Shown in pieces: positions 5,624 to 33,929 of a stretch of 34,883 nucleotides of DNA (its first letter is position 1; every line of letters starts with the position of its first letter). The notes beneath the pieces are model-generated. The model worked only from the letters and a program-made list of their open reading frames with translations, did not search any database and was not told the DNA's origin. The DNA comes from Pricia sp. (GTDB taxonomy: Bacteria > Bacteroidota > Bacteroidia > Flavobacteriales > Flavobacteriaceae), in contig JAGXIC010000268.1 of assembly GCA_024635875.1 (NCBI GenBank), forward strand, positions 1 to 34,883, given 5' to 3'. A program made the position numbers and the translations under genes.

Positions 5624-7795
5624 TTAAGCCAGCTGGTTAGGTCTGACCCGCATAATCCACATTTTGTCGGAATACGAGTCGTTTAGGTTGGTGTAATAGG
5701 ATAACAGGGCACTGTTCCAGGAGGCGTGTTTTTTAAGGTATACGTACCTCCAGTTGTTTTCGGGGTTGATGAAATATCCGGCGCTGAGCCCGTGGGAATT
5801 CAATAGCTTTACGAAACGGTTGGCGTTTTTCGGGTTGGCGAAGACATTGGCGATAATGTAATAGCCAGAACCGATACCTTTTATTTGAAAGGTCTTGGCC
5901 GAAAGTTCTTTATCCGTGACCTGATCTCTTACAATTACATTCTGTTGTAGGACATCGGTACCGTATTTTGCCGATTTCTCTTTGAGCTTATCTACATTAC
6001 TGGCGTAAGCCTCGTTTGTATAGCGGTTGTCGACGTCCATAATCCAAAGGTTGCCGGTATAGGCACCGTTCATACCTGATTTATGCGCATCCAATGCTTC
6101 TTGCCAAGTATCATAGCGTTTCAGGTATACGTATTTTAGTCCGTTTTCGGGATTGTCGACATAATCGGGACTAAAGCCTTGGTCCCCCATATCGTTGATG
6201 AAATTTTCCATGTATTTACCGCCCTTGTAGACGTTGGCCACCACATAGTATCCATCTTGCACGCCGTCAAGATTTCTGAACTTTCGTCCTTTGACGTTAC
6301 TGCGCTCGGCGGTTTCGGTATATTCGTCGACCTCGATCGGGTTACGGGTCTTGTCCTGAACAACGGTAGGCAGTATTCGTTTGGCCGAATTTTGAGCTAC
6401 CCTGCCCTTGCCGCTCGTATTTGCACTGTTGGCATTATTAAGACTGCTGAGAGAATGGAAAGTACCGGTCGAAGCGCCTGTACCGCTCGTTATATTTCCG
6501 TCGTTACCAGAATTATTGGTCGCTATAGATGGCCTGTCTTGACTTCCCAAGAAAAGTTCTTGTGCTTGTTTTTCAAGTTTGGGATTCTTCCCATTGGTCT
6601 CGTTACGCACCATGCTCATGACCAAATTGAAACGGCGTTCCAAATCTTGTTGGCGGCCGTTTTCCAGAGAATCCTGACGGAACATTAGTTCTTGGATGAT
6701 GGCATCGTTCTCGGCCAGCTTCCTTTTTAGTTCAGCGATTTCCTCATTGGCTGCGAAATCATTTTTGTTGGCTCCCTCATTAGTATCTGCTAGCGTATCC
6801 TCATAATCCTCTTCCAACATTACCCGGTCTTCGGTAAGGTTCGGGGTGAAGGAATAGGCAAATGATATTTCATGGGTAACGCCCAAGTTGTTAAAATCGG
6901 TGGAAAAACCTTTTTCCATGGTATATCCGAGGGAAAGTCTTCGGTTGATGTTAAATCCAGCTCCTGCTGATGCGCCGTAGAAACTGTCATATCCACCTTG
7001 CAACCAACCCAATTTGGGCAGGTCGAGAATCATTCCACCACCATAGGCAAGGTCTTGGGGCTCATCGGCATCGGCAGCAGCCCTGTTCTGGCCGTTCATA
7101 CGAATCCGCGCTATGGGCATTAACCGGCTGCCCTCCATGATTCCGTCCCCATTTTGAAAGGGATAGGTATACTGCAAGTGGCCGGAATAGGTCTTATCAC
7201 CGAATTCGGTCAAGGATTTACTGGTCTTAAGATTATAATCAAAAAGATTTTCGGCAAATACGCCGAAATCGAACTGTCCGTAAGAAATATTGAAACCGGG
7301 CTGAAAAGAGAGTACATTGCTGTCTTCGGTACCGTTCAAGCGAAAGTCGTTGGGGTCGATAACGTCGATGTTATTGCGATCTAGCCCCGTACTATAGTAG
7401 GCAAGGTTTCCGCCAAAAGTAAAATTGCTCTTATCGCTCAATTTAATACCGTACGCATAATTGGCCAGGATGCCGATGTTGGAAACCGGCCCCAACTTTT
7501 GGGTATAGGCACTAAGGCCCAATCCGCTTCTATCCCCTATCCTACCGCTATAGCTTAAGAAATAGGTCTGGTCATTATCTTTAAATTGTACCGATTGGTT
7601 TCGGTGTAATAAGTTGACATACGACTTATCTTCCTGTACCGTAGAAAAGGTCGGATTGATCAAAAACCGGTTGAATTTCAACAGGTTTTGTGATGCGGGA
7701 CTGTACAGTAAAATAGGATCATCTGCCTGCGCCCGAACATTCGTAAAGGCCAAGACCGCGAAAATCGCCAATGCTATGTGTTTTACAAATCTCAT
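5624..7795 (-). CDS. Type IX secretion system PorP/SprF-family outer-membrane protein with C-terminal coiled-coil, linker and two SPOR-like modules
   Basis: 723-aa ORF. N-terminal ~310 aa matches PorP/SprF style (DPILLYSPASQNLLKFNRFLINPTFS..., barrel-like strands, GYTMEKGF...THEISFAYSF). C-terminal extension has heptad-like EEIAELKRKLAENDAIIQELMFRQDSLENG, an S/G/N-rich linker and two GYY(V/I)(V/I)ANV...YVYLK...WIMxV modules (about 6274-6020 and 5884-5636). Confidence 0.9.
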   Translation of the reverse strand: MRFVKHIALAIFAVLAFTNVRAQADDPILLYSPASQNLLKFNRFLINPTFSTVQEDKSYVNLLHRNQSVQFKDNDQTYFLSYSGRIGDRSGLGLSAYTQKLGPVSNIGILANYAYGIKLSDKSNFTFGGNLAYYSTGLDRNNIDVIDPNDFRLNGTEDSNVLSFQPGFNISYGQFDFGVFAENLFDYNLKTSKSLTEFGDKTYSGHLQYTYPFQNGDGIMEGSRLMPIARIRMNGQNRAAADADEPQDLAYGGGMILDLPKLGWLQGGYDSFYGASAGAGFNINRRLSLGYTMEKGFSTDFNNLGVTHEISFAYSFTPNLTEDRVMLEEDYEDTLADTNEGANKNDFAANEEIAELKRKLAENDAIIQELMFRQDSLENGRQQDLERRFNLVMSMVRNETNGKNPKLEKQAQELFLGSQDRPSIATNNSGNDGNITSGTGASTGTFHSLSSLNNANSANTSGKGRVAQNSAKRILPTVVQDKTRNPIEVDEYTETAERSNVKGRKFRNLDGVQDGYYVVANVYKGGKYMENFINDMGDQGFSPDYVDNPENGLKYVYLKRYDTWQEALDAHKSGMNGAYTGNLWIMDVDNRYTNEAYASNVDKLKEKSAKYGTDVLQQNVIVRDQVTDKELSAKTFQIKGIGSGYYIIANVFANPKNANRFVKLLNSHGLSAGYFINPENNWRYVYLKKHASWNSALLSYYTNLNDSYSDKMWIMRVRPNQLA

Positions 7796-31097: not shown

Positions 31098-33620
31098 TTA
31101 CTCTCTTACAATAATAAACTCTGAACGTCGGTTGAGCAGGTGTGTGGCTTCCGCACAGGCTACGGTGCCGTTACACTCGTTGAGCAATCGACTCTCACCA
31201 TACCCGATGGCACTCTCGACACGGCTGGCGTCAATACCTTGGGATATGATATAGTCACGAGTCGATTTGGCGCGTTTGTCCGACAGGTATTCGTTGTACA
31301 CCCTGCTACCGCGCGAATCGGTATGTGATTCGATCTTTATTGCCATGCCTGGGTATTCTTTCATCACGCTGACCAGTTTGTCCAATTCTTTAGCGGCTTC
31401 GGGTCGCACATTCGATTTATCGAAGGCAAAATAGATCATTTCGGTCTTCAACTTCTTGATGCCCTCCTCTAAGGCAATCATATCTTCAATGCGCTTCAAG
31501 GAGATGTCTACATTCACGCGTTCGTTGTCTACTGTGGCTACTGACCGTTCGTTATCGAAGAACTCCCTTTTTTCGGTTTTTAGGATGTATTTGGTGTTAC
31601 CGTCAAGATCCTCGAATACAAAGCTACCGTCATCTTCGGTCATCATTTCCTTAAGTTTGATGCCGTTGCCGTCCAAAAGCTGTACGAGTGCCTTGGGCAT
31701 TAAGTTTCCGGTAACCAACTCGGTGATTACGCCTGCAATGGCGTTGTTGTTGGCCGGTATTTCTTCTATGGTCGGTCTTTTGAACGAGTAGATATCGTCA
31801 TCCCCTTTACCCCCGGCGCGATTGGACGCAAAAAATCCATTTTGGTTTTCTTCGTTTACAATATATGAAAAATCATCTTTGTTGCTGTTGATGGGCTTGC
31901 CCATATTGGCTACGGTTCCAAAGCCCTCTTCCGTGTTGTAGGCCGCTTCGAATACATCGAGGCCTCCAAGACCCGTGTGTCCATCCGAAGAAAAATAGAG
32001 TTTGGCACCATTAAAGAAAGGGAACATCTCCCTTTTCTCGGTATTTATTCCGGGACCAAGGTTACGAGGGGCAGAAAAGCCGCCATCATCCAATACATCG
32101 ACTACGAAAATATCGCTCTTGCCAATACTGCCAGGCATATCGGATACAAAATAAAGCTGTTTGCCATCAGGGCTCAAGGCGGGGTGTCCCGTGGAATAGT
32201 CGTTGCTATTGAACGAAACCTCTACCGCATCCGTCCACTCCATACCGATTTTGTTCGATTTGTATATTTTCAGGTGGTTCACCCCTTCTTTATCGCGCTT
32301 CAGCTTTTTACCGAAGTTGTTGCGCGTAAAATACATCGTTTTATTATCGGGCGAAAAAGCCACGGATGCCTCGTGATATTTCGTATTTATTTTTTTAGAA
32401 AATTTCAAGGCATTTTTGAGGTCTTGCGACTCTTTGTTTATTTCGGCCACATACAGATCAAGGTAAGGCTGATCGTTCCATTTATATTTTCGGGTCTTAA
32501 AGAAGGATGAATCTTTAGCGGAAGAAAATACAATTTGGTTCGAATCGAGAAACATCGGCGAAAAGTCGGAATATTTGGTGTTGATGGACATGTTTTTAAG
32601 TTCGAAATCCTCTTCCGAGCCTAAAATGTTGTCCAATACGATCTCGTTGGCCGTAACGTTGGTGTTGTCTAGGCTTGCTTCTCCGTTTTTCGTTTTCCGG
32701 TTATACAATCGCATAAGGCGTTTGGCGCGGCCGTATTTTCCCGTGCCTTTTAGGGAGTGGGCGTATTTGAACATATTATCCTCTGACATTTCCTTACCGT
32801 AGTTTTCATAAAGGATGTTGTACCAATGATAGGCCTTTTCCATATCGGTATTAAAGTAATGGGCATCGGCAGCTTTCTGAAGGTTATCTCGTGTATAATA
32901 TTTTTCGCCTTTTGAAAGGGCTTGCTCGTATAGATCGGCAGCTTCGGCATACCACATTTTATTGAAATAGGCGTCGGCCTTTTCGATAGTTCGGCTTTTG
33001 TTGCCAGTTTTGGCGATACTGGGCGCATTGGCGTCGAGAGAAAGCACTTGTTCGGCAATTTCGCTGGGTTCAACATCCTCTTCGTCGATATTAGCCGCCG
33101 TAATCAATCCAGTTTCGCTCACTTCTAACATAGCCAATGATGATCCGCCAATGGTCATGCTATGCTCTATTTCGAGAATCCAAACGTCTTCGGCATACGT
33201 ACCGTCCAGTTTTGAAACACAGGCATCGACGGCCTCAAGACCGAACGGATAGTAGGCCAAGTACACATAATTGAGCCGGTTATCGGGATTCGTGATATAA
33301 CCGGACTCTGCAAAGCCTTTTCGCTTTAACTTTTTAACGGCTCTATTGCCATTTTTTCCCTCGCTGAACACCCCGGATACGATGTAATAACCATTCTCCA
33401 CATTTTCAAGTCCGCTGAAGGTTCTATGGGGAATATTCTGGCTATCGGCGGCCTCTTCGAAGGTCTTGTTGATGGAAACGACCGGTTCGGTATATGAAGG
33501 GCGATTTTTTGTATCGTTGCTTGCCGTGGTCGGTGTTTCGTCGATTTTGAAGTCTTGATGGTCTTGGGCAAAGACGCCAAAAGACAGGAGGAAGATTAGG
33601 GCAGGTACTATTTTTTTCAT
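31098..33620 (-). CDS. PorE-like OmpA family protein: N-terminal SPOR-like module, TPR, PD40 beta-propeller, carboxypeptidase-regulatory-like domain, OmpA C-terminal peptidoglycan-binding domain
   Basis: Preferred start MKKIVPALIFLLSFGVFAQ (track start 33650 is 10 aa upstream). SPOR-like at 33416-33162; KADAYFNKMWYAEAADLYEQAL (TPR); GHPALSPDGKQLYFVSDMPGSIGKSDIF (PD40); AGVITELVTGNLMPKALVQLLDGNGIKLKEMMTEDDGSFVF; IKIESHTDSRGSRVYNEYLSDKRAKSTRDYI...LLNRRSEFIIV (OmpA). Confidence 0.92.
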   Translation of the reverse strand: MKKIVPALIFLLSFGVFAQDHQDFKIDETPTTASNDTKNRPSYTEPVVSINKTFEEAADSQNIPHRTFSGLENVENGYYIVSGVFSEGKNGNRAVKKLKRKGFAESGYITNPDNRLNYVYLAYYPFGLEAVDACVSKLDGTYAEDVWILEIEHSMTIGGSSLAMLEVSETGLITAANIDEEDVEPSEIAEQVLSLDANAPSIAKTGNKSRTIEKADAYFNKMWYAEAADLYEQALSKGEKYYTRDNLQKAADAHYFNTDMEKAYHWYNILYENYGKEMSEDNMFKYAHSLKGTGKYGRAKRLMRLYNRKTKNGEASLDNTNVTANEIVLDNILGSEEDFELKNMSINTKYSDFSPMFLDSNQIVFSSAKDSSFFKTRKYKWNDQPYLDLYVAEINKESQDLKNALKFSKKINTKYHEASVAFSPDNKTMYFTRNNFGKKLKRDKEGVNHLKIYKSNKIGMEWTDAVEVSFNSNDYSTGHPALSPDGKQLYFVSDMPGSIGKSDIFVVDVLDDGGFSAPRNLGPGINTEKREMFPFFNGAKLYFSSDGHTGLGGLDVFEAAYNTEEGFGTVANMGKPINSNKDDFSYIVNEENQNGFFASNRAGGKGDDDIYSFKRPTIEEIPANNNAIAGVITELVTGNLMPKALVQLLDGNGIKLKEMMTEDDGSFVFEDLDGNTKYILKTEKREFFDNERSVATVDNERVNVDISLKRIEDMIALEEGIKKLKTEMIYFAFDKSNVRPEAAKELDKLVSVMKEYPGMAIKIESHTDSRGSRVYNEYLSDKRAKSTRDYIISQGIDASRVESAIGYGESRLLNECNGTVACAEATHLLNRRSEFIIVRE

Positions 33621-33929
33621 GATTTGGGATGTAGGAAAAAGAGGAAACATTAAGCGGTACAGACAAGGCTACTCAAGAGGGAATGGCTTGAAATTAATAA
33701 GCTTAGGCATCTTTATATTTGTCTAATAGGATAACGTAAAATTCGGCTAATCACTGCTTTTAGGATAACAATTGTTGTGAAAGGAGGATAAATAGTGGTG
33801 TATCGGACAGTGGGCTAACCTTAATCGGAAAATTAGGGCTTTAGACCTATAAGAGGAAGCGCGCTGATAGGGGGATGAGTGAAATTCTTAACCTATCTGC
33901 TGACTTCATAGGATGAATTCGGGGCCAAA

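Follow-up and report, generated by a model that had tools for sequence, protein, structure and literature searches.

Gene organization

The window, by which is meant the whole 34,883-nucleotide stretch of Pricia sp. DNA analysed here, carries three consecutive genes on its minus strand: sprC (10063–7802), sprD (7795–5624) and sprB (5622–1). The sprC ortholog specifies a 753 amino acid protein with Ig_7 domains and a type B C-terminal domain (CHU_C, E-value=8.8e-13), the likely cargo of SprD, and is situated directly upstream of sprD as in sprCDBF. The sprD ortholog, which encodes a cysteine-free 723 amino acid outer-membrane barrel protein of the PorP/SprF family with a putative periplasmic arm, was assigned from its open reading frame, its match to PF11751, the gene order and a primer match. 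Only the 5′ part of the sprB ortholog is present; its 1874 codons run off the contig end and include SprB repeats (PF13573, E-value=3.3e-25, 8 stretches).

According to the papers that cite it (PMC5879114, PMC12635249, PMC9870892), the operon sprC-sprD-sprB-sprF was published by Rhodes et al. (2011). In relatives the gene order is type B protein, SPOR-bearing PorP, SprB-repeat adhesin and short PorP with a CxC tail, and a type B-like gene stands immediately upstream of sprD in 73 of the 80 named orthologs. A tail of the C-x-C type is carried by SprF (PMC12635249). The window contig ends inside sprB; in 10 related genomes a PorP with such a tail lies directly 3′ of the adhesin gene, and in a genome of the same genus (G081) a 317 amino acid PorP ending in NCRCTY comes after the adhesin. 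Sequence comparison with F. johnsoniae sprD was confined to a published 22-base primer; primer 1296 spans the final 33 bp of that gene (PMC9870892). The last 33 bp of a 1487 amino acid ortholog (locus L187, genome G288; GKMAIVKVEN-stop) match primer 1296 with 3 synonymous changes, the chance expectation being zero, and no match to the exact F. johnsoniae primer was found among the genome contigs searched. Given the sprCDBF gene order, the CxC-tailed PorP that follows the adhesin and the primer match, the family of the protein encoded at 5624–7795 is, as judged from sequence, SprD, an identity that rests on a near match to the primer in a Flavobacterium-type genome together with gene order, and that the earlier note had missed. 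The closest named genome with a SprD ortholog is that of Pricia antarctica (86% identity); Zobellia, Maribacter, Arenibacter and Eudoraea also possess one. Gliding in flavobacteria requires SprD, and to our knowledge its role in this process has so far been unexplained. At a further locus (L049, 9000–9500) a stand-alone gene for a 167 amino acid SPOR module, apparently a duplicated sprD end, lies between sprD and sprB.

Architecture of SprD

The N-terminal part of the protein matches Pfam PorP_SprF (PF11751; residues 36–314, E-value=1.3e-54, 186 bits against a curated cut-off of 22.3) and NCBIfam TIGR03519 (T9SS_PorP_fam; residues 5–316, E-value=4.7e-51, 174 bits against 90.55). The barrel (residues 23–318; 6842–7729, minus strand, as are all the segments given here) has 14 predicted strands, which AlphaFold places between residues 58 and 316. 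A predicted coiled-coil helix (residues 346–417; 6545–6760) follows, with helices at 348–400 and 405–416 and 68% identity to the window protein in orthologs, and after it comes an S/G/N-rich linker (residues 418–502; 6290–6544), predicted to be disordered, with pLDDT below 50 over residues 418–489. The C-terminus holds two SPOR-like modules, module 1 at residues 515–588 (6032–6253) and module 2 at residues 644–717 (5645–5866), which are 39% identical to each other; residues 508–720 correspond exactly to 5636–6274 of the window. The earlier note had described a PorP/SprF barrel of unusual length, extended by a heptad-rich part, an S/G/N-rich linker and two related modules, and each of these elements was borne out. 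The length is unusual since four of the six PorP proteins in the same genome have 312–327 residues; the other long one is a 672 amino acid paralog with one module.

That the extension is a periplasmic arm, as the note had also held, is supported by the barrel model, in which both ends of the 14-strand barrel lie on one side, and by analogy with the paralogous carrier SprF, the C-terminal tail of which is periplasmic (PMC12635249). The full-length model has a low pTM (0.41) and gives no information on the placement of the arm relative to the barrel.

The C-terminal modules

Screening against PF05036 (SPOR), the check put forward in the earlier note, gave a mixed result: the window protein scored below the curated cut-off (E-value=0.035, 14.9 bits against 21), and the paralog from the same genome (21.8 bits) and orthologs at the same place (31.0 and 28.4 bits) scored above it. 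An iterative profile search gathered 75 modules, 50 of which were non-redundant and were taken for family matching. The Pfam SPOR family was matched individually by 35 of the 50 (best E-value=5.5e-6), the next Pfam family by 5. Module 2, modelled with AlphaFold from 50 sequences, has a mean pLDDT of 93.9 and the predicted order beta-alpha-beta-beta-alpha-beta. A Foldseek comparison with the PDB placed the SPOR domain of DedD first and that of CwlC second, with those of RlpA, FtsN and DamX within the top 39; the values are modest (best E-value=3.1e-3, TM-scores 0.4–0.6) and the pattern is consistent. When the PDB was searched by sequence, neither the whole protein nor the module profile returned a SPOR entry; fold comparison alone yielded such entries. 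Four E. coli SPOR domains, compared with the modules by profile, gave a weak match (32% probability, E-value=4.8e-4), which was used for residue correspondence only.

The modest Foldseek values and the low E. coli profile probability would suit a superficial likeness, in which a ferredoxin-like or RNP-like fold has no relation to SPOR. We consider this very improbable, because SPOR domains of five different proteins, two of them ranked first and second, appear within the best 39 matches, and because ortholog modules at that site score above the Pfam cut-off. The SPOR-like fold predicted in the earlier note is thus upheld, and the modules are supported, at the level of models, as having a SPOR fold.

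Conservation and distribution

Across 80 orthologs (81 sequences with that of the window) identity to the window protein is 74% for the barrel, 18% for the linker, 67% for module 1 and 79% for module 2, the most conserved segment of the protein. Since the linker has diverged so much further than the barrel and module 2, the modules are under strong selection and are not drifting. Mature SprD is without cysteine in all 81 sequences, none occurring after the signal peptide. The survey of homologs that the earlier note had proposed found the barrel-plus-arm architecture in more than 80 genomes with the modules conserved, which rules out chance or an annotation error.

Several variants were encountered. 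The Flavobacterium-type SprD proteins at loci L187 and L200–L204 possess, between barrel and module, a very long helical repeat of AKADAEA type, which apparently far exceeds a radial crossing of the periplasm. At L055 (5550–7697) the SPOR module of a SprD-like protein is followed by a TonB_C-like domain (E-value=0.0016), and at L210 (2453–7045) three SPOR-bearing PorP genes stand in tandem behind one type B CTD gene. Proteins of about 500 residues and of unknown family at L037–L040 end in a SPOR-like module, with a dprA-like gene adjoining in two of the loci, and a secretin-domain protein at L197 (6107–7963) likewise has a C-terminal SPOR-like module.

PorP tails and PorE partners

PorE binds peptidoglycan through its OmpA-like domain (PMC9143113), and carriers paired with PorE are thought to be static (PMC9143113, PMC12618676). 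When 97 PorP genes from related genomes were sorted by tail and neighbours, an OmpA-bearing PorE was found adjacent to 26 of 40 short-tailed PorP, to 0 of 12 with a CxC tail and to 0 of 45 with SPOR modules, so that the mutual exclusion of a SPOR arm and an adjacent OmpA-bearing PorE has no exception among the 97. The Fisher value of 4.6e-12 overstates the case, as the collection procedure enriched for SPOR-bearing genes and barrels group according to tail; because barrel families and tail types coincide, the 45 are not 45 independent events. Seven of the 45 adjoin a PorE-like protein without OmpA, all in one paralog family. Both arrangements occur in the genome under study: on contig C64 the neighbour of a 327 amino acid PorP is an OmpA-bearing PorE, and on contig C258 that of a SPOR-bearing PorP is a PorE-like protein that has no OmpA. 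These distributions support the proposal of the earlier note that the arm takes the place of a PorE-type partner.

CxC tails (DCYCPA) also mark a second PorP family, distinct from SprF, that was seen at L242 (4661–5650) and L250 (16365–17354) and is a candidate further mobile carrier. In the window itself a PorE-like protein (PD40 propeller, CRD, OmpA) is encoded at 31098–33650 on the minus strand and bears the same SPOR-like module near its N-terminus (residues 87–161; 33168–33392). The distance of this gene from sprD, 25–29 kb, is conserved in relatives.

Ligand of the arm

The SPOR domains of RlpA and FtsN recognize denuded glycan by its lactyl carboxylate, which is read by a conserved Gln and a patch of basic residues (PMC6895207). 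Contact positions in the present modules were assigned by profile alignment, extended ungapped into strand 1. On this alignment Ile/Val occupies the position of RlpA Q270 in all 50 modules, Tyr that of FtsN R285 in all 50 and that of RlpA R311 in 47 of 50, and the Trp of the last strand is invariant. The resulting aromatic face (Tyr, Tyr, Trp; positions 684, 686 and 713 of SprD), its side-chain exposure deduced from strand alternation, would suit either stacking on sugars or contact with the surface of a protein. The domains that accompany the module point to the cell wall, since it is also found with LysM repeats, OmpA and secretin and in PorE-like proteins.

Our proposal, to which we give about an even chance, is that SprD is the PorP carrier of SprC and that its SPOR-fold arm connects the carrier to a structure beneath the outer membrane, most likely cell-wall glycan strands. 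From the gene order and the rule known for such pairs, the SprD barrel would receive SprC, a type B substrate, from the translocon of the T9SS and retain it at the cell surface. Past the last barrel strand a coiled coil and a flexible linker would lead into the periplasm and carry the two SPOR-fold modules, whose role in cis would be the one that PorE has in trans for other carriers of PorP type, with a hold presumably weak or reversible enough for movement. The models suggest that the SPOR-fold arm is the periplasmic grip of SprD; the type of structure gripped is what we infer. Against the proposal stand the replaced glycan-contact residues, the reported movement of SprC and the presence of the module even in a PorE equipped with OmpA. 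Of the peptidoglycan tether advanced in the earlier note, the part that is supported is the arm in place of a PorE-type partner; the substituted residues and the reported movement of the presumed cargo tell against the rest.

SprC reportedly travels along the gliding track (PMC12635249), and a fixed tether would be ill-suited to SprD if SprC is, as presumed, its cargo. Possibly, then, the modules grip a track protein (GldJ, GldK or GldN) non-covalently, SprD carrying SprC as SprF carries SprB through its twin-cysteine disulfide. SprF is bonded to GldK through the CxC motif of its short tail (PMC12635249), and SprF orthologs of the same operon keep that tail; without cysteine SprD would be unable to use this disulfide link and would need another grip, and the invariant Tyr/Tyr/Trp set that replaces the canonical glycan residues could provide one. 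GldJ is present in the genome under study, and no GldK above the cut-off was found in this incomplete assembly. This reading, which we hold only tentatively, must be set against the recurrence of the module outside the gliding operon, in LysM, OmpA or secretin proteins, and against the one family in which the module occurs in place of OmpA; cell-wall glycan is accordingly rated somewhat above a track protein as the ligand. An unlikely variant would have three alternative PorP grips (a PorE/OmpA adaptor, a track-bonded cysteine tail and a SPOR-fold arm), the third retooled with its aromatic face for something other than denuded cell-wall glycan, such as gliding-track glycans or surfaces, so as to hold reversibly on a moving rail. 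Binding to a different protein component of the carrier system (SprC, PorE, SprA or another SprD), for assembly and not anchoring, would account for the same module in both PorP-type and PorE-type proteins and for the isolated module gene in one genome; its company with LysM and OmpA, which points to the cell wall, makes this quite improbable.

Comparison with known systems

SprD itself was already known; what appears to be new is that SprD and other PorP carriers bear a SPOR-fold arm and that PorP tails fall into three types. A literature search, with most subscription journals outside its scope, found no paper tying SPOR domains to type IX secretion carriers or to SprD. Read as a PorP carrier whose periplasmic arm has the SPOR fold, SprD would acquire a concrete and testable role in gliding. 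The arm would also stand beside two known ways of holding a carrier, PorE/OmpA and the SprF disulfide, and raises the question of whether a fold for cell-wall binding has been recruited into a moving machine.

SprD of F. johnsoniae (sprCDBF) has the gene order, PorP barrel and C-terminal SPOR-like module seen here, with the match to its 3′-end primer in a Flavobacterium-type ortholog. Flavobacterium-type SprD proteins have 1220–1635 residues, with a single, divergent module and a long helical spacer rich in Ala, Lys and Glu, whereas the present protein has 723 residues, a short spacer and two modules. SprF, the PorP-type carrier of SprB, shares with SprD the barrel family, the operon and a place beside a type B adhesin, but has a short tail with CxC where SprD is cysteine-free and has a SPOR arm. 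In the PorP-PorE pair of P. gingivalis (PorP, PorE, PG1035) a PorP barrel holds a type B substrate and has a periplasmic link (PMC9143113), as SprD probably does; there the linker is a separate OmpA-domain protein, whereas in SprD it would lie within the barrel protein and have a SPOR fold. The SPOR domains of RlpA, FtsN, DamX, DedD and CwlC have the fold and order of elements predicted for the SprD modules, but those of RlpA and FtsN contact glycan through Gln and Arg (PMC6895207), where the SprD modules have Ile/Val and Tyr.
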